Counted from the first letter of the stretch, positions 49,088 to 62,369 are shown. The stretch is DNA of 64,000 bases from Thermoplasmatota archaeon (GCA_018818785.1 JAHIRF010000009.1:1-64000), one strand, 5' to 3'. Made by a program: numbers and translations. Notes: generated from the letters alone by a model not told the origin.

Positions 49088-50800
49088 TCACCCCTTCATG
49101 CTCTCCTTCACTGCATCCCTCATCAGGAATATCGGCAGGTACGCATAGTCTGCGACAAGATCATGGAACATCTTCTCGTCGAAAGCACCTCCCAGTTCCT
49201 TCTCCATCTCCTTCCTGAACTCGATTATCAGATGTCTGCCGATGAGATATGATAGTGCCTGTCCTGGACTCCTGGTGTATCTGATCACTTCATCTCTCGC
49301 GGCGTTCCTTGGGATGCCTATCTCGTTCACTGCGAGGTCGACCATTTCATCGACAGTAGCCTCACCTACTGCAAGTCTGATGTCCGCGACTATCCTGTAT
49401 GCCCGCCAAAGGGCTCCGTTGACCATTTCCAGGACGGCTTCGTCATCGGTCCCGTATCCGTGATCATACATCATCTTCTCGCAGTAGTGAGCCCATCCCT
49501 CCACCGTTTCCGCAGCGACGTAAAGGTTGTCTGACATCTGATGCAGCTGCAGCATCCAGTGCTTGCCATTGGATCTGACACCCTGGTGGAAGTGTCCCGG
49601 GTATGCCTCGTGCACCGCGGTGTTTATTATGGACCCGTGGTTGAGGTGGCTGCCAAGGTCCTTGGGATCCTTGGGCCTAGTTACTACATACGCCCCTTCC
49701 TGGATCTTGTCGAACTTGGACGGCATGAACAGCGCCGCATAGGGCAACACGGGGGCGAGGAATGCCGGAGTCTCGATTATCTTGAGAACACTGGTCTCAT
49801 CTATGGTAGCTATCCCGTTCGCTATGATGAACCGTTTGGCTTTGAGCATCTCCTCCTCTGTTGCTTTCAGTCCTTCTTCGAAAGTCTTTGGCGCGTGTGA
49901 TTCCACCACTTTCTTCGCGCCATCGACTCCTCCGCCTGGTGAGATCTTTTCGGATATGACCTCTCGCTCGGCCTTGAGATCCTTCAGGTACTTCTCTCCG
50001 AGAGCCAGGATCGCATCTGAATCCATGCCCAAACCTCTCATCTCGATCAGCTTCTCGAACTTCGTTCTGCCCATCGCGAAATCCGCATCAGCTGTCTTCA
50101 GGAGTCCCTCGAGCCACGCTTTCTGCACCGTGATGGCTGTTTTGGTCACATTCACGCCTTCGGAGAGAGCCTTGGCTGTCTCCGGCGTGATATGATCCTT
50201 CCAGGACTGCTCGACGAATGTCAGGAAATCTGGGAACTGGTCACATGATTCGATGGCTCCTTCAGTCCACAGTTTCACGGTCCTTTGTCCGTTGAACCTT
50301 GCCCTGAACTCCTCGAAGTGCCTCGGCACCTGGTGCAGCCGACTAGCCATGGCCCGAGCCCTGAATTCGATGGACGCATAATCCCTCGAGAACATCATGA
50401 ACACGAGCCCCCCAAGTCCTTCGATCACGTCTGGATACATCCTCCAGAGAGGATACTCATGCCTGCCGAAGGTGGCGAAATCGATGGAGATGTCGAGCAC
50501 CTTCAACATGAGTCTTCTGTCCAGTGTGAAATCTGTAGAATCGAGTGCACGCGCCTTGATCCGCCATTCCTTGAGAATGTCCAGAGTGTCGTCGATGCGC
50601 TTCACTCCGCCATGAGGCAGATACATGTCATATGGGTCGTGTAGCCCCAATGCCGTGCCGACATCTGGATTCACCGCGAGTATTCTCTTGAACATCTCTT
50701 CGTTCAGCTGATCAAAGGCATGTGCTCCCACATGATCACCTGGCAGGGAGATGGCATCATGCTGCATGAGTCTTTCGAAGCCACAATCGGGGTATCGCAT
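49088..50800 (-). CDS. DUF885 family metallohydrolase, copy 1
   Basis: 570 residues. The family's zinc motif HEAYPGHFHQG (about 400-410) is followed by a catalytic-type EGWAHYCEKMMYDHGY block and the C-terminal SPGQALSYLIGRH. DUF885 proteins are gluzincin-type metallopeptidase relatives that mostly lack known substrates. It is a paralogue of the next gene upstream (50805), with the same order of motifs. Only 4 bases separate the two genes. The ATG at 50800 is uncertain: the alignment to the paralogue starts near AHAFDQLNEEMF, so an ATG at 50767 is possible. Confidence 0.85.
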   Translation of the reverse strand: MRYPDCGFERLMQHDAISLPGDHVGAHAFDQLNEEMFKRILAVNPDVGTALGLHDPYDMYLPHGGVKRIDDTLDILKEWRIKARALDSTDFTLDRRLMLKVLDISIDFATFGRHEYPLWRMYPDVIEGLGGLVFMMFSRDYASIEFRARAMASRLHQVPRHFEEFRARFNGQRTVKLWTEGAIESCDQFPDFLTFVEQSWKDHITPETAKALSEGVNVTKTAITVQKAWLEGLLKTADADFAMGRTKFEKLIEMRGLGMDSDAILALGEKYLKDLKAEREVISEKISPGGGVDGAKKVVESHAPKTFEEGLKATEEEMLKAKRFIIANGIATIDETSVLKIIETPAFLAPVLPYAALFMPSKFDKIQEGAYVVTRPKDPKDLGSHLNHGSIINTAVHEAYPGHFHQGVRSNGKHWMLQLHQMSDNLYVAAETVEGWAHYCEKMMYDHGYGTDDEAVLEMVNGALWRAYRIVADIRLAVGEATVDEMVDLAVNEIGIPRNAARDEVIRYTRSPGQALSYLIGRHLIIEFRKEMEKELGGAFDEKMFHDLVADYAYLPIFLMRDAVKESMKG

Positions 50801-50804
50801 TCCG

Positions 50805-52463
50805 TCAGTGGGGTACCATCGCTGACCTGACGACTTTCCTGGCCAGATGGAACGGGAGATTGCCGTTCTCTGCCATGAGGTCGTGGAAGAGCTTCTCGTC
50901 GAATCGCTCCCCGAGCTCGTGCTCCAGCTCTTTCCTGAGCCCCAGGACCATCTTCCTTCCCATCATGTATGATAGACCGTAGCCTGGCGTGTGCGAGAAT
51001 CCTTTGACATCCGCCTCTGCGGAATTCCTCGTAGTGTCCGTCTCACGGACGAACATCTCCACCATCTCGTGAATCGACGCGTCCCCATGAGCGAGTTCCA
51101 CATCGTATATCGCCCTGCAGGCTCTCCAGAGGCCGAACCCTATCATCGCGAGAGCGTCCTTGTCCGTTCCGCAGAACTTATGGTCGTACATCATCTTCTC
51201 GCAATAATGTGCCCACCCCTCCATCATCTCATAGGCAGGGATCATTGTGTCCGAGGCGATCAGCATGTGCGGCAGCTGATGCATCCATGGCTTGTTGTTC
51301 GACACAACCCCTTGATGGAAATGGCCCGGATATGCTTCGTGTACCACTGTATTGATGATGGCCGCACGGTTCCAAAGGTTATTGAGATCGGCTTTGTCCA
51401 GCGGGTCCGTGATCAGATAAGTCCCGTGTTGGATCTTGTCAAAGACGGCTGGCATCATCAACGCTGCGGTCGGGATCGCCGAACTGAGGAATTCAGGGGT
51501 CTTGACGAAATTGAGGATCCCCTCATGGTCGAGGGTGATAAGGTCGTGCTCGATTAGGAACTGTTTAGCGTTCTCCGTCTCGCTGCTGGTGACTGCTAGC
51601 ACATCTTCGATGGTGTCGGGTGTGTCCGATTCGACTATTTGCCTGGCCTTCTCTGGAGTCCCGTCCAGGGATATCCTGCTAGAGATGATGGCGCGTTCCT
51701 CTTTGAGTTCATGTATCGTCATCTCGCCTATGGCAATGATCTCGTTGGGGAGATAATCGATCCCACGGATCTTTAGCAGTTTTGCGAACTTCTCCCTGCC
51801 CATCGCGAACTGCTCAACGGATACATCGAGCATTCCTTTCAGCCAGTCCTTGTGATCTGCGATATCCTCGTTCGCATACGCGATGTTCTTATCCATCTGG
51901 GCGAGAAGGGATGATGATATGCTATCCTTAGAGAAGCTCCGCAGATGAGCAAGGTAGTCTGGTACGCCTTCGCATGTCTCGATCGCGATCTCGGTCCATG
52001 CCCTTACAGGCTTCGAATCTGAGAACCGCTGTCTGAATTCACCGAGATAGCGTGGCAACTCGCCTATCCTCGACACGATGCCCTCAACCCTATCCGGAAG
52101 GGGTGCGTACTCCCTTACCGCCATCATGAAAAGGAGCCAGCCTGGGTGCTCGAGCCCATTCGGATACATCTTCCACATCGGATAATCGTCTATCGCGAAC
52201 CTCTGGAGCTCGAGGGACATCTCCAGCAACTCGAGTGAAATGCCCTGATCCGGCGTGAGTTCCGCCGAGTCCGCGATCCTGCTCGCTTCCTTGTGCCATG
52301 ATTCTAGAAGCTTGAGCGTATCGTCCAGACGCTTGAAACCACCATGAGGTAGGTGTAGGTCGTATGGTTTGTGCTTTCCGAATTGCGTGGCTGCATCCGG
52401 GCTGATCTCGAATAGCTTCACGAGCATCTGCTCGTTCAATCGGTCGAATTCAGTTTGCGACAT
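50805..52463 (-). CDS. DUF885 family metallohydrolase, copy 2
   Basis: 552 residues, paralogous to the gene at 49088. Shared motifs are DDTLKLL near the N-terminus, HEAYPGHFHQGVVSN, EGWAHYCEKMMYDHKF, and TPGYGLSYMMGRK. Zinc ligands appear intact, so both copies should be active; the role is unknown. The ATG at 52463 is preferred over 52484, because GAGGT lies about 8 bases before it. The gene begins 37 bases after metF on the same strand, and with its twin continues the metF operon without an evident promoter. Confidence 0.85.
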   Translation of the reverse strand: MSQTEFDRLNEQMLVKLFEISPDAATQFGKHKPYDLHLPHGGFKRLDDTLKLLESWHKEASRIADSAELTPDQGISLELLEMSLELQRFAIDDYPMWKMYPNGLEHPGWLLFMMAVREYAPLPDRVEGIVSRIGELPRYLGEFRQRFSDSKPVRAWTEIAIETCEGVPDYLAHLRSFSKDSISSSLLAQMDKNIAYANEDIADHKDWLKGMLDVSVEQFAMGREKFAKLLKIRGIDYLPNEIIAIGEMTIHELKEERAIISSRISLDGTPEKARQIVESDTPDTIEDVLAVTSSETENAKQFLIEHDLITLDHEGILNFVKTPEFLSSAIPTAALMMPAVFDKIQHGTYLITDPLDKADLNNLWNRAAIINTVVHEAYPGHFHQGVVSNNKPWMHQLPHMLIASDTMIPAYEMMEGWAHYCEKMMYDHKFCGTDKDALAMIGFGLWRACRAIYDVELAHGDASIHEMVEMFVRETDTTRNSAEADVKGFSHTPGYGLSYMMGRKMVLGLRKELEHELGERFDEKLFHDLMAENGNLPFHLARKVVRSAMVPH

Positions 52464-52500
52464 CGTATCATACCTCACAGGCATCGGCCGCGGAATCGGG

Positions 52501-53418
52501 TCAGAAAGTCGGTCTCGGAAGGAGTCCTGCCTCTTCGACTATCCTGGGCACGATATCTTCCCACATGACTGCCATAATGTGGATGCCATGGACCCCTTTC
52601 ATCTTCTTGAGTGTCTCGATCTGTTCCACGCATAGCCTGATGCCCTCTTCCTTGGAGTCCTTGGCATTCTTCATCCTGTCGATGATATGGTTGGGGACGA
52701 TCATTCCAGGGACCTTGTTCTTCATGTATCTCGCAGCGCCGGCGGTCTTCATAGGTATGACCCCGGCTAGTATGTGGATTTTCTTATCTAGACCTCGGCT
52801 ACGGACTTCATCCATCCACTTCTCGAACAAGTCCATATCGAATATGGCCTGCGTTTGACAGAAGTCGGCGCCGGCCGCTACCTTCTTCGCCAACCGCGAA
52901 GCCCTGAACTCGTATGGAGTCGCGAAAGGGTTCTCTGCGCAGCCCAGATACACCTTGGGAGGGTCCTTTATCTCTCCTCCACCGACCTGCTTGCCTTCCC
53001 TTCTAAGCCTGTCAAATACCTGTAGTTCAGAGATCGAATCGAAGTCGAACACGCTCTTCGCGCCTTTCTCGTTGCCGAAGATCTGATGGTCCCCGGTCAA
53101 GCAGAGCACGTTCCTCACTCCGAGGGCACTCGCGCCCAACAGATCACTCTGGAGAGCGATCCTGTTCCTGTCCCTGCAGGTCATCTGGATGACCGGTTCC
53201 ACACCTTCTCTCATGACTATGGCCGCACTGGCGATGCTGGATAACCTCACCACCGCGGTCTGGTTGTCCGTAAGGTTGAACGCGTCCGCATAGCCCTTCA
53301 ACATCTTTGCATGGTGGACGAGCGGTTCCGGATTCGCGGACTGTGGCGGACCGATCTCGGCGGTGACGACGAACTTGCCCGATTCGAAGACCCTCTCCAG
53401 GTTGCTGCCAGCCTTCAT
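52501..53418 (-). CDS. metF: 5,10-methylenetetrahydrofolate reductase MetF
   Basis: 305 residues, the normal length. TIM-barrel signatures are VTAEIGPPQSANPEP, FNLTDNQTA, MTCRDRNRIALQSDLLGA, VLCLTGDH, GCAENPF, GADFCQTQAIFD and ILAGVIPM. The enzyme reduces methylene-THF to methyl-THF with FAD. It overlaps the metV stop by 4 bases (ATGA), and GGGGG lies about 7 bases before the ATG. MetV, MvhD and HdrA proteins are encoded immediately upstream, which indicates a ferredoxin-linked or bifurcating complex. This step makes the methyl group used for acetyl-CoA synthesis or methionine. Confidence 0.96.
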   Translation of the reverse strand: MKAGSNLERVFESGKFVVTAEIGPPQSANPEPLVHHAKMLKGYADAFNLTDNQTAVVRLSSIASAAIVMREGVEPVIQMTCRDRNRIALQSDLLGASALGVRNVLCLTGDHQIFGNEKGAKSVFDFDSISELQVFDRLRREGKQVGGGEIKDPPKVYLGCAENPFATPYEFRASRLAKKVAAGADFCQTQAIFDMDLFEKWMDEVRSRGLDKKIHILAGVIPMKTAGAARYMKNKVPGMIVPNHIIDRMKNAKDSKEEGIRLCVEQIETLKKMKGVHGIHIMAVMWEDIVPRIVEEAGLLPRPTF

Positions 53419-54119
53419 CTGACCGCCCCCTTTCCTTTCTTCTGGTGCTGAGTCAGCTTCGCGTCCTCTCTGACGTATGTGCGTCTTCCACCTGAATGGC
53501 TGGTCGACCAATCCTTAGGTGCTGATACCTGCTCGATCAGCTCAAGTCTGTTCTGCAGCTTGAGTCTCTCGTGGATCGCATACCACGCGCAATCGATCTC
53601 CAGGTTCACTTCACAATGACCGTCCGATGATCCACCGCATGGACCGTTCAACATGCTCTTGGCGCATCTCGCTATGGGGCATATGCCTCCGGTCGTGTGT
53701 ATGATGCAATTGCCGCAACCAACGCACTTCTCGGACCACACGCCCTGCTCCTCTGGCACGCCGAATATCCCCGTATTGAGCGCAGGGAACGCGAGCTTGT
53801 GCGGATAGTTGTCACCTATCGTCTGGGCACCCAGCGAGCAGGCCATGGATAATACGAGATCGGAATCGAGTATCTTGTCCTCGACCTCCTGGATCCATTC
53901 CTTCTCGCACTGTCTCTCTACAACGAGTGCTTCGAACTGTTGCTTCCTGCCCTCCTTCTTGTTCTTGACTTTGAGCGCGGAGACGAGCATCTTGACTTCC
54001 TTCTCTCCACCTGCCAGACAGATCGCCACACAGCTCCTGCACCCGATCACCGTGATCTTCTTGTACGGAGCGATCATGTCTGCGATCTCTCCGAGGGGTT
54101 TTCTCTTCGCGACTATCAT
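53415..54119 (-). CDS. metV: MetV: zinc-containing partner of methylenetetrahydrofolate reductase
   Basis: 234 residues. The N-terminal half has cysteines in GCRSCVAICLAGG. The C-terminal half is the MTHFR C-terminal domain with SEKCVGCGNCIIHTTGGICPIARC and LNGPCGGSSDGHCE. In acetogens MetV binds MetF and, through clusters or zinc, connects it to electron-transfer subunits. It overlaps mvhD at its start (ATGA at 54116-54119) and metF at its end, so stoichiometric co-translation is expected. Confidence 0.92.
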   Translation of the reverse strand: MIVAKRKPLGEIADMIAPYKKITVIGCRSCVAICLAGGEKEVKMLVSALKVKNKKEGRKQQFEALVVERQCEKEWIQEVEDKILDSDLVLSMACSLGAQTIGDNYPHKLAFPALNTGIFGVPEEQGVWSEKCVGCGNCIIHTTGGICPIARCAKSMLNGPCGGSSDGHCEVNLEIDCAWYAIHERLKLQNRLELIEQVSAPKDWSTSHSGGRRTYVREDAKLTQHQKKGKGAVR

Positions 54120-54535
54120 TGCTCATCACCCTCCTTGCCGAGCGGACCGAGTCGATTGACGACATCACACATCTTCGAGACTATCTCCGGGAATCTCCAA
54201 GTCATGGTCGAGGATGTATTGAACATCTCAACCCTTTCTTTCTCGATGCCTGCCTCCTCGAGCATCGATCTGACATGTTCCACTCGCTTCCTGCCTTCTA
54301 TGGAGCCAGTATCATAGTAACAGTTCTTCTCGAGACACCCGAGCACGAAGACGGCATCTGCGCCATCCTCGAGCGCCTTCAGTATGTGCAGTCCATCCAC
54401 CCTTCCGGTGCATGGTACATCGATGATCCTCACACTCGCATCATATGTGATGCCCGATTTCGCGGCTGCAACGGGTGAATCCAGACCATGCCGCTCACAG
54501 CAGAAGCCGACTATCTTGGGTCTGCGCGGTGTCAT
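54116..54535 (-). CDS. mvhD: MvhD-like iron-sulfur electron-transfer subunit (FlpD/HdrABC partner)
   Basis: 139 residues, the usual length. Cysteines are FCCERHG, VPCTGRVD, and GCLEKNCYYDTGS, the conserved pattern of the 2Fe-2S MvhD/FlpD family. MvhD normally shuttles electrons between HdrA and a hydrogenase or formate dehydrogenase subunit. Here it is coupled to HdrA-type genes upstream (start overlaps their TGA by one base) and to metV downstream. No hydrogenase genes are in the window, so MetFV is the likely partner. Confidence 0.93.
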   Translation of the reverse strand: MTPRRPKIVGFCCERHGLDSPVAAAKSGITYDASVRIIDVPCTGRVDGLHILKALEDGADAVFVLGCLEKNCYYDTGSIEGRKRVEHVRSMLEEAGIEKERVEMFNTSSTMTWRFPEIVSKMCDVVNRLGPLGKEGDEQ

Positions 54536-56112
54536 CAGAAATCACCTCTCAGCATCGTCTTGGTCTCCTGCATTATGATGTCGTCGGTGCAGTTGCGCAA
54601 CTCGATCGCTTTGCTCGGGCATATGCCGACGCACATCCCGCACCCTTGGCATGCCTGGGTGCGTATCTCCGCTTTGTTGGCAATGCCTATGAACGGGGCC
54701 TCGTATGGACATGTCCTGATGCATGTCAGACACGCGGAGCATTTCTCCTGCGTGACCTCGGCGACCGATCCTCCGTATTCGATGATTCCCTTGGATGCGA
54801 ACTCACCTGCGAGTTCGCCCGCAACCATACCTTCCTCCTCGGCGATATCCTTCGTCTTGGGGAAGAGGGCTGAGCCGCAGATGAATATCCCCGGCCTTGG
54901 GGTGCTCACCGGTCCTCTCTGTATGCTCCCGTGCCTGATGCCACCATCTGGAGACATCGGTATCCTCAGCGTATCCGCGATGCCTTCGTTGTCATCGTTC
55001 GCGGGTATCGAGGCGAATGCCAGAGTCCCGAATCTCAACCTGATCGTCTCGCCCTGTGCGAGGTCCTTGACGGATACCACGTTCGGTTCCTTGGGATCGA
55101 TCTTGGGGATTCCAGTCGCATCGTACCTGATGAATCGGACTCCAAGCTCTGCTGCTTCCTTGTACCTCAGCTCGGATAGGCCGAAAGCCCTCATCTCTTG
55201 GAATACGATGGTGATGTCTGAATCCGTTGAACGTCTCTTGAGTTCGATCGCTAGCTCCAGTGACTCATCCCATGCGTAGTCACGAACTTGCATGGACTTG
55301 CCCGCTGGATCTGGCGAATCGACGATCACGATGGGGCCTTCCATCTTCTTGCCAGCGCGTATCTGCTCGTCCAGTTCGTACAGAGGCAACGCGCTCTTGC
55401 ATGCCTTCGCGAGAGGTCCATTGAGTCTGGTCCAGCCGCCGCCGGTCGCAACCACGATCGCTGCGCACTGGAGCTCCTCCACCTTCTCCCCTGCCCTGAT
55501 GGTCAACACGAAATTGCCACCGTACCCTTTGGATTTCAACAGGACTGAGTTCTGCATCAGTACGCCAGGGGCCTTGAAGCTCTTCGTGCCCTTCTCGATG
55601 ATTATCGTATGAGCTCCGGTCTTCGCGGCGGTTTCCGCCGCCTTCCTACCAGACGCACCTCCGCCTAGCACGACGACATTCCTCGTCCTCATTTGCTCTT
55701 TGAGGGTCTCCAGCGGTTTGAGGCCCATCACCTTCTGTAGCGCAGCGACCATCATGGTCTCTGCCTTTGCCTGCGCTCTGGGCGGATCGTCCATGTGCGG
55801 AAGGACCACCTCGTCCCTTATGTTGACATACTCGACCAGGAATTCGTTCACCTTCGCCTTCTTGAATGCTGCCAGGAGCGCGGGGTTGACAACCTTCTTG
55901 GGACATGCGAGTACCACGACCCTGTCCACCTCCCTTTCCTTTGCCTCCTGGACGACTTGTTTTATGCTCTTTGAATCGCAGACGGCTCCGACCAGTACTG
56001 TCGATACGACAAGATCCATCGTCGATGCCTTCTCGATCAACTTGTTCATGTCTATGAGTTGAGGGATTTCGGTGCAGGATTTGCATCCGATGACCTGTAT
56101 CTGTCCTTTCAT
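54535..56112 (-). CDS. HdrA-like flavoprotein, N-domain plus FAD domain plus C-terminal ferredoxin
   Basis: 525 residues. Residues 1-130 are the HdrA N-terminal domain (VIGCKSCTEIP, then VVVLACPKKVV, then VEYVNIRDEVVLPH). A FAD-binding domain follows with VVVLGGGASGRKAAE and VATGGGWTR. The C-terminus is a two-cluster ferredoxin: CSACLTCIRTCPYEAP and CQGCGMCVGICPSKAI. It lacks the inserted ferredoxin of full-length HdrA. GGAGG stands about 7 bases before the ATG, which overlaps the preceding TGA (TGATG). FAD in HdrA is where electrons are bifurcated; whether this copy bifurcates is not shown. Confidence 0.88.
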   Translation of the reverse strand: MKGQIQVIGCKSCTEIPQLIDMNKLIEKASTMDLVVSTVLVGAVCDSKSIKQVVQEAKEREVDRVVVLACPKKVVNPALLAAFKKAKVNEFLVEYVNIRDEVVLPHMDDPPRAQAKAETMMVAALQKVMGLKPLETLKEQMRTRNVVVLGGGASGRKAAETAAKTGAHTIIIEKGTKSFKAPGVLMQNSVLLKSKGYGGNFVLTIRAGEKVEELQCAAIVVATGGGWTRLNGPLAKACKSALPLYELDEQIRAGKKMEGPIVIVDSPDPAGKSMQVRDYAWDESLELAIELKRRSTDSDITIVFQEMRAFGLSELRYKEAAELGVRFIRYDATGIPKIDPKEPNVVSVKDLAQGETIRLRFGTLAFASIPANDDNEGIADTLRIPMSPDGGIRHGSIQRGPVSTPRPGIFICGSALFPKTKDIAEEEGMVAGELAGEFASKGIIEYGGSVAEVTQEKCSACLTCIRTCPYEAPFIGIANKAEIRTQACQGCGMCVGICPSKAIELRNCTDDIIMQETKTMLRGDF

Positions 56113-57350
56113 CAAGCTCCCTCCTTCCGATGGCTCGCACGAGATGCCGCGGCGGCAGCCTTCACAGATGTCTCCTCTATGTCCATGGGCTCGCAGGTCG
56201 TCCCGACCAGGAACACTCCCGAGTCTTCGAGGGACTTGTCGCATATCGCGAATCCTCTCTCATCCGCTTTGATGCCGAGGGCGTCCATGAGTTCCTTCGA
56301 ATTGCCAGCAGGGCGCATTCCTACCGAGAGCAAGACCAGGTCATATTCCGTCTCGATGACCTCTGAGTCCGTCTCCGTCGCTGCCCTCACGACCAGGTTG
56401 CCGTCATTTCCAGGCAGCACGACTGCCGGCATGCTCCGGATCATCCTGACCGTCTTCTTCCTCTCCTTGACCCATCTCTTGAAGTCGTCATGTGGCTCGT
56501 ACAGGGTCCTAAGGTCCATGAAATAGAAATCCAAGTTGACCTCTGGGTCCTGGTCGATGAGCAGCTGAGAGATCTTGGTCGCATACTTGCAGCAGAACTT
56601 GGAGCAGTACTCAACACCCGTCTTCATGGATCTGGATCCAACACATTGTATGACCGCGACCTTCTTCGGCTGCTTGCCATCCGATGGCCTGAGCAGCCTA
56701 CCGTGCTTGTTGAGGATGCGTTCCGCATCGAGGCTCGAGATCGCGTTCTCCAGCACGCCCCCGCCTAGCCTCTTGACTTCGGAAGCGTCTACTGGCTCCA
56801 TACCTGTGGCACAGATGATTGATGAGACTTTCCTGGTAACGTTCCTCGCCCTATCCTCGTAATCTATCGCCTTGGTCGGGCACACATCCGCGCACTTCTG
56901 ACACTTGTCCTTCTTGAAGTGCAGGCACTTGCTCCTGTCGATCCAGTGATGCCTCGGCTGACCGTTGCCCGTCGGGGCGAAGATCGCCTTGTCATCAACT
57001 GGACACGCTTCGATGCACTTATTGCATCCAATGCAGTTGTTAGTGACATATCTGGGTGAGATCTTGATCTTGACTTCATACCCATTTCCGTTCTTCTTGA
57101 CCTGGGTAGTCTCTGAGAGCAACAGAACCTCCGCGGATTGGTCTCTGAGCAGTTCCGTCGATCGGTCGACGACGTAGCATGCCCCGCAGTTCCTGCACTC
57201 GCTCACGCCCTTGCAGGTCAGCTCCCTTGCCATCCCGCCGAGGGATTCGGACCTCTCCACGAGCACGATTCCTTCGCTTCTGTCAACGAGGGCCTTCGCC
57301 GCGGATACACCTGCGGGCCCTCCTCCAATAATGAGGACACTTCTTGACAT
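56112..57350 (-). CDS. HdrA-like flavoprotein with inserted ferredoxin domain
   Basis: 412 residues. FAD motif GGGPAGVSAAKALVDR and the LGGMARELTCKGVSECRNCGAC block open the protein. A two-cluster ferredoxin insert follows at about 110-170 (CIGCNKCIEACPVDDKA and CQKCADVCPTKAI). VIQCVGSRSMKT and the cysteines of YCSKFCCKYA are typical of HdrA. It lacks the N-terminal domain and the terminal ferredoxin, both of which are found in the neighbouring gene; together they cover one HdrA. GGAGGGAGA is about 5 bases before ATG 57350. First gene of the operon. Confidence 0.9.
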   Translation of the reverse strand: MSRSVLIIGGGPAGVSAAKALVDRSEGIVLVERSESLGGMARELTCKGVSECRNCGACYVVDRSTELLRDQSAEVLLLSETTQVKKNGNGYEVKIKISPRYVTNNCIGCNKCIEACPVDDKAIFAPTGNGQPRHHWIDRSKCLHFKKDKCQKCADVCPTKAIDYEDRARNVTRKVSSIICATGMEPVDASEVKRLGGGVLENAISSLDAERILNKHGRLLRPSDGKQPKKVAVIQCVGSRSMKTGVEYCSKFCCKYATKISQLLIDQDPEVNLDFYFMDLRTLYEPHDDFKRWVKERKKTVRMIRSMPAVVLPGNDGNLVVRAATETDSEVIETEYDLVLLSVGMRPAGNSKELMDALGIKADERGFAICDKSLEDSGVFLVGTTCEPMDIEETSVKAAAAASRASHRKEGA

Positions 57351-57501: not shown

Positions 57502-59181
57502 TCAGTTGAGTCCGGTTATGTAGCCGTTGTCGTCGATGTTGATCCTCTCAGCTGCAGGAGATGTCGGCAATCCTGGGATCGTCATCATCTCTCCGGTCAG
57601 AGGCACGATGAAGCCCGCACCAGCGGCCAACCTGACCTCCCTGACCGTCAAGACCCAGTCCTTGGGCGCACCCTTCTTCGCCGGGTCGTCCGTGAGCGAG
57701 TGCTGGGTCTTCGCCATGCAGATCGGAAGCTTGTCGTTTCCGGCAGCCTCGATCGCCGCGATGTCTCCGGGAGCCGTGCCAGTATATACGACATCCTTTG
57801 CCCCGTAGATCTCCGTTGCGATGATCTTTATCTTCTCCTTGATCGGCAGCTTCTCGTCGTAGAGCACCTTGAAGTTGCTCTTCTCCTTCTCGAGTGACTC
57901 CAGCACGGCATTGCCTAGCTCGACACCGCCCTTGCCGCCCTCGACGAACACCTTGGATAGACCGAATCTCGCACCCACCTTCTCACAGTGCTTCTTGATG
58001 TGCTCGATCTCCTCTGGGCTGTCAGTCGGGAACTGGTTGATCGCGACTACGACCGGCACCCCGAACTTCTTGATGTTCTCTATGTGCTTGTCGAGGTTGC
58101 TGTAACCCTTCTCAAGGAATCCGACATCTGGCTTACCGATCTCCTTCTGATCCATCCCACCATGCATCTTGAGCGCCCTTATGCTGGCGACGAGTACTGC
58201 GACGTCAGGTTTCAGGCCGGTTATCCTGCAGACGATATCGAAGAACTTCTCGCCTCCGAGATCCATCGCGAATCCGCCCTCGGTGATGACGTAGTCTGCC
58301 ATCTTGAGCGCGTACTTGGTGGCGATGATCGAGCTGTTGCCGTGTGCGATATTCGCGAACGGTGCACCGTGTATGAGCGCGGGCTGTCCCTCTAGTGTCT
58401 GAACCAGTGTTGGAGCGATCGCGTCCTTCAGCAGGAGGCACATCGCGCCTATGCCCTTCAACTGGTCCGCGGTGACAGGCTTCTTGTCGTACGTGTATCC
58501 CACGACCATCCTGGACATTCTGAGTCTGAGATCGGCCATGTCCTTGGAGAGCGCCAGTATGGCCATGATCTCGCTGGCGACTGTGATATCGAAGCCGCTC
58601 TCGTGTGGTACACCACCCACGGTTCTGCCTCCGAGTCCGACCACGACCTTCCTCAACTCCCTGGCATTCATGTCCATGGCCTTTCTCCAGGTGATCTTTG
58701 TTGGGTCGATCCCCAGTGGGTTCTTCTTTGAGATATGGTTCTCCACGAGTGCGGACAGAAGGTTATGGGCTGTCCCGACTGCGTGTATGTCGCCTGTGAA
58801 GTGAAGGTCGATGTCCCACATCGGATAGATCTGAGAGTATCCTCCTCCGGTCGCACCGCCTTTGATGCCGAATGTCGGGCCGAGCGATGGTTCTCTGAGG
58901 GAAAGCATGACCTTTTTCCCCAGCTGGCCCATGCCCTGGCACAGACCTATGGACGTGACTGTCTTCCCCTCACCGGCCTTTGTGGCGGTGATGGCTGTGA
59001 CAAAGATGAGTTTGCCATCCTTGTTGCTGTCGAATCTCTTTAGCACGTCGAGAGGGACTTTGGCTTTGTACTTCCCATAGAAGTCTAGGTCATCGCGGGA
59101 AAGGCCGACCTTCTCCGCAATCTTCTCGATGTGCTGTACCTTGGCTGCCTGAGCAATTTCAATATCTGGCTTCATCGCCAT
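57502..59181 (-). CDS. fhs: Formate-tetrahydrofolate ligase
   Basis: 559 residues, full length. It uses ATP to make 10-formyl-THF from formate. Motifs include the ATP-binding TKAGEGKTVTSIGL, LREPSLGPTFGIKGGATGGGYSQI, FTGDIHAVGTAHNLL, HGAPFANIAHGN, GFAMDLGGEKF, GGMDQKEIGKPD and NQFPTDSPEE. The C-terminus is typical (TIPGLPTSPAAERI). A GGGGG lies about 8 bases before the ATG at 59181. It opens the folate-pathway gene set and is divergent from folD. Fhs is frequent in acetogenic bacteria and uncommon in archaea. Confidence 0.98.
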   Translation of the reverse strand: MAMKPDIEIAQAAKVQHIEKIAEKVGLSRDDLDFYGKYKAKVPLDVLKRFDSNKDGKLIFVTAITATKAGEGKTVTSIGLCQGMGQLGKKVMLSLREPSLGPTFGIKGGATGGGYSQIYPMWDIDLHFTGDIHAVGTAHNLLSALVENHISKKNPLGIDPTKITWRKAMDMNARELRKVVVGLGGRTVGGVPHESGFDITVASEIMAILALSKDMADLRLRMSRMVVGYTYDKKPVTADQLKGIGAMCLLLKDAIAPTLVQTLEGQPALIHGAPFANIAHGNSSIIATKYALKMADYVITEGGFAMDLGGEKFFDIVCRITGLKPDVAVLVASIRALKMHGGMDQKEIGKPDVGFLEKGYSNLDKHIENIKKFGVPVVVAINQFPTDSPEEIEHIKKHCEKVGARFGLSKVFVEGGKGGVELGNAVLESLEKEKSNFKVLYDEKLPIKEKIKIIATEIYGAKDVVYTGTAPGDIAAIEAAGNDKLPICMAKTQHSLTDDPAKKGAPKDWVLTVREVRLAAGAGFIVPLTGEMMTIPGLPTSPAAERINIDDNGYITGLN

Positions 59182-59309: not shown

Positions 59310-60203
59310 TTGGTGGCCCAAATAATCAACGGAAACGAGGTTGCGAAGAGCATCCGAGCAGAGCTCAAGGAAGAGATCGCTGGGATGAAGATGTCCGGGG
59401 TGACCCCTGGTCTGGTAGTGATCATCGTGGGGGAGGATCCTGCTTCACAGGTCTATGTGAGAAAGAAAGGCGAAGCGTGCGTGGAGCTAGGTATTGACTC
59501 CGAGACGATACGCCTCCCTGCGGAAACGACTGAACAGGAGCTCCTCGACCTCATCGAAAAGTACAACAACGACAAGAAGTTCGATGGCATTCTGGTCCAG
59601 CTCCCGCTGCCGAAGCATATCAACGAGCAGAATGTGTTGCTAAGGATCGATCCGAGCAAGGATGTGGACGGCTTCCACCCCGTGAACGTCGGGAAGATGG
59701 TCGTCGGAGCCGAGGACTGCTATCTGCCATGCACACCGCACGGGATACAGGAACTCCTGGTAAGGAGCGGGAACGATCCGAAGGGGAAGCATGTCGTTGT
59801 CATCGGCAGAAGCAACATCGTCGGGAAACCGATCACGAACATCCTTCTTCAGAAAGCTCCTGGAGCGGATGCAACAGTCACCATATGTCACTCTAGGACG
59901 CAGAACATGAGCGGGTTCACGAAACAGGCCGACATACTCATCGCGGCCATAGGTGTGCCGAACTTCGTGAAGGCGGACATGGTCCGAGAGGGGGTCGTCG
60001 TGATCGACGTGGGTGTCAACAGGATCAACGACCCGACCGCGAAGAATGGCACTAGGCTCGTGGGCGATGTCGACTTCGAATCCGTGAAGGAGAAGGCCAA
60101 GGCGATCACTCCTGTACCGGGAGGGGTCGGGCCAATGACCATCACGATGCTTATGAAGAACACGGTCAAGGCCGCGAAGATACATCACAACTTGAAAAAG
60201 TGA
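59310..60203 (+). CDS. folD: Bifunctional methylenetetrahydrofolate dehydrogenase/cyclohydrolase FolD
   Basis: 297 residues. It converts 10-formyl-THF through methenyl-THF to methylene-THF with NAD(P). Signatures are SQVYVRKKGEACVELGI (catalytic Lys of the YxxxK motif), ILVQLPLPKHI, DVDGFHP, LPCTPHGIQELL, the nucleotide-binding VVIGRSNIVGKP, ITPVPGGVGPMT. The TTG at 59310 is taken because GGAGG near 59298 lies 8 bases before it; a GTG at 59313 is the next codon. With Fhs and MetFV it completes the folate methyl branch. Confidence 0.97.
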   Translation: MVAQIINGNEVAKSIRAELKEEIAGMKMSGVTPGLVVIIVGEDPASQVYVRKKGEACVELGIDSETIRLPAETTEQELLDLIEKYNNDKKFDGILVQLPLPKHINEQNVLLRIDPSKDVDGFHPVNVGKMVVGAEDCYLPCTPHGIQELLVRSGNDPKGKHVVVIGRSNIVGKPITNILLQKAPGADATVTICHSRTQNMSGFTKQADILIAAIGVPNFVKADMVREGVVVIDVGVNRINDPTAKNGTRLVGDVDFESVKEKAKAITPVPGGVGPMTITMLMKNTVKAAKIHHNLKK

Positions 60204-60611: not shown

Positions 60612-62369
60612 ATGGCAGAGAAAGACACCGAACTAATGAAGGGCGAAATTATAGTGAAGGACCCCTCGAAACTCAGATTGAAGCCGAATCTCCAGGACTA
60701 CAACGGTCTGAGGAAGAGTTTCAAGTGGGCCGACGCTGAAAAAATGGTAGACTGGTTCCCTGGCGGAAAGATAAACGCTGCGTACAACGTGCTGGATAGG
60801 CATGCTAAGGGCAAGAATGCTGACAAGCTCGCTCTCATATATGATGATGGCGCGGGCACTGTCAAGAAGTATACTTTCAAGCAGTTGAACGACGAAGCGA
60901 ACAAGTTCGCGAACGTCCTGAAGAAGTTGGGCGTCAAGAGGCAGGACAGGGTATTCGTCTTCCTTCAGAGGACCGTCGAGTGCTACGCCAGCTTCCTCGG
61001 AGCGATCAAGTACGGTGCCATCGCAAGTCCGATGTTCCCTGCATTCGGTCCGGACGCTATCAAGGACAGACTCCTGGACAGCAGCGCTGTCGTGCTGGTC
61101 ACTGACCCCGAGCTCAAGAAGAGGTTCTACCAGGTCAAGAACGACCTGCCTGACCTGAAGCACCTGATCGTCGTGGGCGAAGACAACCCACCCGCAGGGG
61201 AGCTCAGCTACTCCAAGGAGATGGCGACCGCATCGAAAGAGTTCGAGACGGTCCCGATGGACCCTGAGGAATTCATGTTCATGCTCTACACTTCCGGCAC
61301 GACCGGCAAGCCTAAGGGTGTCGTGCATGCGCACAAGGGTATCGTCCAGCAGACCCTTACGACGAGATGGGTTCTCGATGTACATGACGATGATATCTAC
61401 TGGTGCACGGCCGACATAGGCTGGGTCACTGGCGTCGTATACGGCGTGCTCGGACCATGGTCGAACGGAATCACCCAGATCGGTCTGGGCGGCAGGTTCG
61501 ATCCCGAGACATGGTACAAGACCATCCAGAACTACAAGATCACCGTCTGGTACACCGCACCTACGGCTGTCAGGATGCTCATGGCAAAGGGCGACGAGCT
61601 CCCGGCCAAGTACGACCTGAGCAGCCTCAGGGCGCTCTACTCCGTCGGCGAGCCGCTGAACCCCGAGGGTGTCAAGTGGGCACTCGAGGTGTTTGACAGC
61701 AAGCCGTTCCATGACACATGGTGGCAGACAGAGACCGGCAGTATACTCATAACGAACTTCCCCGAGATGCCGATCAAGCCAGGTTCCATGGGTAAGCCTC
61801 TGCCAGGTGTCGAGGCAGCGATCGTCGACGAGAACGGAGATGTCCTGCCCCAAGGCGAAGAGGGTAGCTTGGTCCTAAAGCCAGGCTGGCCGTCCATGAT
61901 GAGGCAGATATGGAAGAACCCTGCGAAGTACAACGAATACATGAGAAATGACTGGTACTACACAGGTGACACGGCCCAGATCGACAAGGACGGATACTTC
62001 TGGTACGTCGGTCGCGCGGACGATGTGATCAAGACCTCCGGCGAGAGGGTTGGTCCGTTCGAGGTCGAGAGCGCGCTCATCGAGCACCCGGCTGTAGCCG
62101 AAGCCGGTGTCATCGGTAAGCCCGACCAGCTCAGGGGCAACATCATCAAGGCGTTCATCGTCCTGACCCCTGGCCACACCGAGAGCGACGAACTCAAGGT
62201 CGAAATACAGAAGTTCGTGAAGACCAGGCTCGCGGGGCACGCGTACCCAAGGGAGATCGATGTCGTGAAGACGTTGCCGAAGACAAGAAGCGGCAAGATC
62301 ATGAGGAGACTATTGCGTGCTAGAGAACTCGGTCTCCCGATCGGCGACACGTCCACCCTGGAAGACTAG
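60612..62369 (+). CDS. acs: Acetyl-CoA synthetase family enzyme, AMP-forming
   Basis: 585 residues, somewhat shorter than the typical 650 of bacterial Acs. It activates acetate, or a related short acid, to its CoA ester with ATP. The adenylate-forming motifs are YTSGTTGKPKGV, WWQTETG, YYTGDTAQIDKDGYFWYVGRADD, and the catalytic-Lys KTRSGKIMRR. DIGWVTGVVYGVLGPW and FDSKPFHDTWWQTETG match the acetyl-CoA synthetase subgroup, with the conserved Trp that limits acyl length. It lies beside the folate methyl branch, linking acetate and C1 carbon. Preceded by an unusual long leader. Confidence 0.93.
   Translation: MAEKDTELMKGEIIVKDPSKLRLKPNLQDYNGLRKSFKWADAEKMVDWFPGGKINAAYNVLDRHAKGKNADKLALIYDDGAGTVKKYTFKQLNDEANKFANVLKKLGVKRQDRVFVFLQRTVECYASFLGAIKYGAIASPMFPAFGPDAIKDRLLDSSAVVLVTDPELKKRFYQVKNDLPDLKHLIVVGEDNPPAGELSYSKEMATASKEFETVPMDPEEFMFMLYTSGTTGKPKGVVHAHKGIVQQTLTTRWVLDVHDDDIYWCTADIGWVTGVVYGVLGPWSNGITQIGLGGRFDPETWYKTIQNYKITVWYTAPTAVRMLMAKGDELPAKYDLSSLRALYSVGEPLNPEGVKWALEVFDSKPFHDTWWQTETGSILITNFPEMPIKPGSMGKPLPGVEAAIVDENGDVLPQGEEGSLVLKPGWPSMMRQIWKNPAKYNEYMRNDWYYTGDTAQIDKDGYFWYVGRADDVIKTSGERVGPFEVESALIEHPAVAEAGVIGKPDQLRGNIIKAFIVLTPGHTESDELKVEIQKFVKTRLAGHAYPREIDVVKTLPKTRSGKIMRRLLRARELGLPIGDTSTLED

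Follow-up and report, generated by a model that had tools for sequence, protein, structure and literature searches.

Organization of the operon

The window, a stretch of 64,000 nucleotides from a Thermoplasmatota archaeon (GCA_018818785.1, JAHIRF010000009.1:1-64000), is part of contig C5 of a 1.97-Mb genome that is 94.5% complete. Positions 52501-57350 of its minus strand carry five genes, in the order hdrAa, hdrAb, mvhD, metV and metF (57350 down to 52501), which were identified by Pfam, NCBIfam and PDB matches. These genes and two neighbors that give their context are:

56112..57350, minus strand: hdrAa, 412 aa, HdrA core flavoprotein without the N-terminal and C-terminal ferredoxin domains (phmmer against 5odc_A residues 144-562, E 5e-69)
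54535..56112, minus strand: hdrAb, 525 aa, N-terminal cluster domain, flavin domain (no inserted ferredoxin domain) and C-terminal dicluster ferredoxin domain (alignment; AlphaFold2 model)
54116..54535, minus strand: mvhD, 139 aa, [2Fe-2S] adaptor, FlpD/MvhD (PF02662, 1.7e-36; alignment)
53415..54119, minus strand: metV, 234 aa, Fe-S/Zn subunit, MetV C-terminal domain (PF12225, 1.7e-34; alignment)
52501..53418, minus strand: metF, 305 aa, methylene-THF reductase (MTHFR) catalytic subunit (PF02219, 5e-42; alignment)
57502..59181, minus strand: fhs, formate-THF ligase, immediately upstream of hdrAa (adjacency kept in relatives)
59310..60203, plus strand: folD, methylene-THF dehydrogenase/cyclohydrolase, divergent neighbor (adjacency kept in the host family)

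Gene calls and domain matches confirm the five overlapping same-strand genes described in the first-pass annotation, with the junctions reading, in gene order, TGATG, TGATG, ATGA and ATGA. A Shine-Dalgarno-like purine-rich stretch (e.g., GGGAGG, GGAGGG) lies 5' of every start in all five genes; hdrAa starts at 57350 with GGGAGG upstream. No hdrB or hdrC gene was found inside the operon or adjoining it, and no CCG protein within it. An acetyl-CoA synthetase-like gene at 60612-62369 is nearby in relatives too. For the genes tested, dN between the window and relatives is low (0.06-0.31) and dS near-saturated, which points to purifying selection on these genes. The operon is a real and conserved variant of a known enzyme type, and its product is, from these sequence comparisons, probably functional. 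Directly downstream of metF, the same strand encodes two related proteins in tandem (49088-50800 and 50805-52484; 559-570 aa, DUF885-like by eye), and several relatives likewise have homologues after metF.

Two complementary halves of HdrA

The two HdrA-like flavoproteins (412 aa and 525 aa) are not two copies of one protein but complementary halves with different domains. HdrAa aligns with residues 144-562 of Methanothermococcus HdrA (5odc_A; phmmer), and HdrAb with residues 8-175 and 414-636, with a gap at the inserted ferredoxin domain. The two TrxR-like flavin domains of HdrA are thus both present, as two genes. The AlphaFold2 model of HdrAb (pLDDT 83.4) aligns with 5odc_A over 515 residues (Z 26.0, rmsd 8.9); a different placement of the domains in the model would fit the high rmsd. 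The residues and domains that distinguish the halves are:

57177..57191, minus strand: HdrAa Cys55 and Cys58, equivalents of Methanothermococcus HdrA Cys194 and Cys197 (ligand audit)
56877..57035, minus strand: HdrAa inserted ferredoxin domain, 8 Cys, two predicted [4Fe-4S] clusters, putative ferredoxin port (ligand audit)
within 56718-56735, minus strand: HdrAa E210, the E356 equivalent (alignment)
56574..56645, minus strand: HdrAa HA4 ligands C236, C249, C253 and C254, and K259, the K409 equivalent (ligand audit)
55255..55323, minus strand: HdrAb stretch without HA4 ligands and K409, VDSPDPAGKSMQVRDYAWDESLE (ligand audit, alignment)
54607..54741, minus strand: HdrAb C-terminal dicluster ferredoxin domain, 8 Cys, presumed link to MvhD (ligand audit, alignment)

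In the ligand audit of the operon's HdrAs, HdrAa has the Cys197 equivalent, the eight inserted-domain cysteines and the four HA4 cysteines, and HdrAb has the N-terminal-domain cysteines, the eight C-terminal ferredoxin cysteines and no HA4 cysteine. The HA4 ligands of 5odc, which we take to be C386, C399, C403 and C404, agree with the alignment numbering. The E356/K409 positions hold E and K in HdrAa, and D and E in HdrAb. These two residues are said to mark bifurcating HdrA flavins (PMC9430772); the signature is present in one flavin domain, that of HdrAa, in line with the bifurcation put forward in the first-pass annotation. HdrAb has the N-terminal cluster domain and lacks Cys197, and HdrAa the reverse. 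According to PMC9012536, Cys197 of one HdrA supplies a ligand to the N-terminal cluster of its partner, such a complementary partition is read as a heterodimer, and HdrBC is fed via the cluster of the thioredoxin-reductase domain of HdrA. What is new here is the loss from HdrAb of HA4, which leads to HdrC in HdrABC, and of the E356/K409 pair, both of which HdrAa keeps; the HA4 of HdrAa is kept across split pairs.

Comparison with known systems

The type IV (Hdr-type) MTHFR of Moorella thermoacetica and Sporomusa ovata consists of HdrCBA-MvhD-MetVF (PMC9430772, PMC8760232). Judged by sequence, the operon product is a variant of this enzyme in which HdrA is split into two complementary genes. 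The kinship with the Moorella enzyme, already proposed in the first-pass annotation, is supported by the shared MetV, MetF, MvhD and double-flavin HdrA, all in one operon. The two halves add up to 412+525=937 aa, close to the 942 aa of the double-TrxR HdrA of S. ovata, which likewise has no inserted ferredoxin domain in its second half and has E/K in one flavin domain only (PMC9430772). Unlike the type IV enzymes, the operon has no hdrB or hdrC, HdrA comes as two genes, HdrAb has no HA4, HdrAa has an inserted ferredoxin domain, and there is no GltD insertion as in Moorella. It also differs from HdrABC heterodisulfide reductase, in which HdrB (with CCG motifs) and HdrC are encoded in the same operon.

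In archaea, the available text of PMC9012536 describes tandem or fused complementary HdrA pairs in ANME and MetFV-HdrA-MvhD clusters in Ca. Syntrophoarchaeum, and that of PMC6085437 reports a Met complex in Methanomassiliicoccus intestinalis. Unlike the ANME pairs as described there, the pair here is tied to MetVF, and its partner with the N-terminal domain lacks HA4 and E356/K409. Ca. Syntrophoarchaeum and M. intestinalis share archaeal MetVF with HdrA and MvhD; by their descriptions in these texts, rather than by sequences, neither is said to have a split pair, HA4 loss or a lack of HdrBC. With these precedents, and with the wide spread of the combination in Thermoplasmatota, the view of the first-pass annotation that it is unusual in archaea is not supported. 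A literature search confined to open-licence papers found no paper joining MetF, HdrA, MvhD and Thermoplasmatota.

QmoAB-type HdrA pairs have the membrane subunit QmoC as partner and an apr/sat context. Unlike these, the pair here is flanked by folate and Wood-Ljungdahl genes. Desulfobacterales-type bacteria (L112, L115, L136 and L145) have the same HdrA-MvhD-MetV-MetF order without adjacent hdrBC, but differ in having a fused HdrA (~1015 aa) whose second half keeps HA4 and an extra MetF-like gene upstream. This extra gene (~290 aa), divergent in sequence, lies immediately upstream of fused hdrA in L112, L115, L136, L140, L145 and L147, and, where measured, is 31-34% identical to the MetF of the window.

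Distribution and correlated losses

A survey for adjacent hdrA-hdrA-mvhD-metV-metF, which the first-pass annotation had proposed, found the order recurring across the host family and several other Thermoplasmatota families. The order mvhD-metV-metF with hdrAb upstream is kept in every host-family relative whose contig reaches that far; this conserved order, together with the domain matches, bears out the association of MetVF with two HdrA-type proteins and MvhD. Longer stretches in the host family read fhs-hdrAa-hdrAb-mvhD-metV-metF and have folD and acs as neighbors, and this six-gene order is also found in Thermoplasmatota families f2, f20, f22, f23 and f27 and is rare in bacteria. Bacterial split pairs were found in an Atribacterota member (L137), a Syntrophaceae member (L103) and a Bacillota MAG (L095). 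The closest named relatives of MetF are from Thermoplasmatota or euryarchaeal MAGs (84-91% identity). On a MetF tree of 113 rows, 25 of the 29 split-type rows group within a single Thermoplasmatota clade (98/90), and the split-type label needs six changes; G129 (f55) has a similar split pair with its MetF on another branch. Contamination or chimerism as the origin of the block was rejected because host-family genomes assembled as a single contig also contain the block.

Other Thermoplasmatota have alternative forms: L065 (f19) has hdrC-hdrB-hdrA(fused)-mvhD-metV-metF in one operon, L069 (f16) a 1470-aa HdrA that carries an inserted Fer4_20/Pyr_redox segment, L066 and L067 (f15) a polyferredoxin-MvhD fusion, and family f6 metVF alone. 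Among relatives with the split pair or bacterial counterparts, K409 of HdrAa is replaced by Arg in f2, part of f20 and bacteria, and in f22 members the inserted ferredoxin domain seems to be gone, judging by length and the pattern of motifs, with the rest of the operon kept. Because of these two changes in sister lineages, neither bifurcation nor ferredoxin reduction can be common to all members.

The losses in the second half of HdrA follow the gene content. With incomplete HdrAs excluded, the second-half HA4 is intact in all 33 fused HdrAs and in 0 of the 15 split pairs. Operons with adjacent hdrBC retain second-half E356 in 9/9 cases and those without in 3/33, six operons too near a contig start being left out; the Fisher p of 5e-7 overstates the evidence because the rows are related and kinship is uncorrected. 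Two of the three exceptions (L103 and L137) are distant sequences in which the alignment is uncertain at this position. The simplest reading of these alignments is that, in operons that do not also encode HdrBC, the second flavin would no longer bifurcate. The correlation of HdrBC presence with second-half E356/HA4 provides a testable rule for reading such operons.

The ferredoxin-MvhD adaptor and MetVF

Cluster ligands are complete along the HdrAb C-terminal domain, MvhD (four conserved cysteines, Cys13, 42, 67 and 72) and MetV (12 invariant cysteines) in the alignments, and metV and metF are adjacent. The AlphaFold2 model of MetV (pLDDT 75) had no PDB match at E below 0.001, nor did a sequence search find one, so MetV provides no structural argument. 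In many operons, MetV-MetF stands behind a unit of dicluster ferredoxin and MvhD while the upstream module varies among an HdrA pair, GltD-like, OYE-like and polyferredoxin modules. A GltD-like Pyr_redox/Fer4_20 module is joined to ferredoxin and MvhD in L114 (by Pfam) and in L122, L109, L139 and L089 (by eye), and an OYE-like Oxidored_FMN module is found in L135 (by Pfam) and L143 (by eye); all seven are bacterial MetVF operons. A polyferredoxin module is present in L066, L067 and L087, and an HdrC-like protein plus ferredoxin in L083. Not every lineage has the adaptor: at many loci, in Dehalococcoidia and elsewhere, metV-metF has no MvhD nearby.

The GltD-like and OYE-like bacterial operons suggest, by their domain content, donor swapping at the MvhD adaptor. 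Because varied modules share the ferredoxin-MvhD unit before MetVF, MvhD may be the exit toward MetV, which suggests an electron flow from the HdrAb ferredoxin domain through MvhD and MetV to MetF. By analogy with HdrABC-MvhAGD, MetVF may occupy the place of the hydrogenase.

Proposed mechanism and alternatives

The best explanation of the whole, to which we assign a probability of about one half, is an Hdr-type methylene-THF reductase, serving the methyl branch of the Wood-Ljungdahl pathway, whose HdrA is an obligate HdrAa-HdrAb heterodimer, with the HdrAa flavin bifurcating to methylene-THF and ferredoxin. We infer a single asymmetric HdrA unit, in which HdrAa would contribute the HA4 cluster, the inserted domain where ferredoxin would dock and the flavin that carries the bifurcation signature, and HdrAb the N-terminal cluster, completed by the HdrAa cysteine, and the exit to MvhD. 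The heterodimer reading is favored because fused relatives carry both halves in the same order as HdrAa-HdrAb, a Rosetta-stone argument. A hydride donor would reduce the HdrAa flavin, from which one electron would run downhill to methylene-THF while the other would be driven uphill to ferredoxin. MvhD would receive electrons from the HdrAb C-terminal dicluster ferredoxin domain and pass them via MetV to MetF, which would reduce methylene-THF. The HdrAb flavin site, having lost HA4 and the bifurcation residues, would probably be an electron relay or structural only. The donor is most likely NAD(P)H rather than F420H2, which is disfavored because no CofD match was found in the genome, a single negative in a 94.5% complete genome and not proof; NADH oxidation by type IV HdrA is known (PMC8760232). 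The Wood-Ljungdahl context is complete, with fhs and folD adjacent and an acs cluster elsewhere in the genome. The bifurcation raised in the first-pass annotation, here with ferredoxin as second acceptor, is plausible and can be sharpened to the HdrAa flavin. What counts against this explanation is that HdrAa keeps in split pairs the HA4 that serves HdrBC in HdrABC, that an orphan hdrCB exists, and that S. ovata MetVF did not copurify with the Hdr subunits (PMC9430772).

That orphan qualifies the earlier statement that HdrB and HdrC are missing, which holds for the operon but not for the genome: a hdrC-hdrB pair conserved in the host family lies at C7:31501-32875, another hdrB stands beside a full-length hdrA on C11, and CCG proteins are many. 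With HA4 retained in HdrAa, HdrBC encoded by the orphan pair could conceivably dock in trans. A Moorella-like complex with the orphan-encoded HdrB/HdrC docked on HdrAa via HA4 would suit the presence of the orphan hdrB in most family members (80-89% identity), the conserved HdrAa HA4 and the hdrC-hdrB genes in the operon of L065. It is nonetheless the least probable of the alternatives, as Thermoplasmatota split operons are without hdrBC throughout, split HdrAb has neither the HdrC-facing HA4 cluster nor E356/K409, and other HdrA modules in the genome could own this HdrCB. A linear, non-bifurcating ferredoxin:methylene-THF reductase, with reduced ferredoxin docking at the HdrAa inserted domain and electrons passing from the HdrA pair through MvhD to MetVF, is also unlikely, if less so. 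MetVF-type reductases take reduced ferredoxin in vitro (PMC9430772, PMC8760232), the loss of HdrAb HA4 leaves fewer branches, several sister lineages have lost K409, and the NAD(P)H-binding GltD-like domain of Moorella HdrA is absent here. However, the host-family HdrAa keeps both E356 and K409, and another donor must serve the sisters apparently lacking the inserted domain, because they keep the remaining operon.

The same complex might instead run in reverse, oxidizing methyl-THF in acetate oxidation or methylotrophy and confurcating to ferredoxin and NAD(P)+. This is compatible with the other readings and slightly better placed than the linear path, although still rather doubtful: methylotrophic acetogenesis has been proposed for related Thermoplasmata (PMC11264602) and the acetyl-CoA synthetase-like gene is conserved nearby, but sequence cannot give direction, and fhs and a formate dehydrogenase-like gene fit the reductive direction as well. 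Within the preferred bifurcating reading, we tentatively extend the proposal, at less than even odds, to an HdrBC-free MTHFR with HdrAa as its single bifurcating flavin and ferredoxin as second acceptor and, more generally, to MetVF as a plug-in acceptor to which lineage-specific donors (HdrA pair, GltD-like NAD(P)H module, OYE-like flavoprotein or polyferredoxin) connect via one conserved ferredoxin-MvhD adaptor.

The operon bears on the coupling of methylene-THF reduction to energy conservation in acetogens and on the identity of the second acceptor of the Hdr-type reductase; the Moorella and Sporomusa complexes have proved difficult to isolate in intact form. With five subunits and no co-encoded HdrBC, this naturally reduced version leaves one candidate branch fewer, and it names a flavin (HdrAa) and an exit (HdrAb ferredoxin domain and MvhD) as mutation targets.

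Wood-Ljungdahl and other Hdr loci in the host genome

The locus documents a bacterial-type Wood-Ljungdahl pathway in an archaeon. The acs cluster on C12 comprises a CooC-like protein, a 1379-aa CODH-ACS frame, two CdhD-family proteins, a RACo-like protein and a pterin-binding methyltransferase (CooC-like and RACo-like by eye). In the 1379-aa frame (G000:C12:287257-291396; L155:8258-12397), residues 63-632 form a Prismane/CODH domain and residues 969-1378 the ACS beta domains; this archaeon, whose acs genes form a cluster of bacterial type, appears to encode CODH and ACS as one fusion protein. The fhs/folD/metVF and acs gene set matches that of Ca. Gimiplasmatales MAGs, proposed as methylotrophic acetogens (PMC11264602), the likeness being one of gene set. 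A Nuo/Fpo-like block without NuoEFG lies at ~C5:81257-91631 (by eye; 49-kDa subunit confirmed).

Two further Hdr loci were observed. Just right of the window (G000:C5:64353-70620; L018), a second tandem HdrA pair (445 + 564 aa), whose second HdrA keeps the HA4 motif, adjoins an Fe-S protein and a molybdopterin oxidoreductase (by Pfam; formate dehydrogenase-like by eye). On C11 (G000:C11:53576-73867; L020, L021), a large Hdr/Mvh cluster has, by eye, several fused or paired HdrAs and three MvhD-type proteins, one of them fused to HdrC-HdrB, with a hydrogenase small subunit and Hyp genes nearby.
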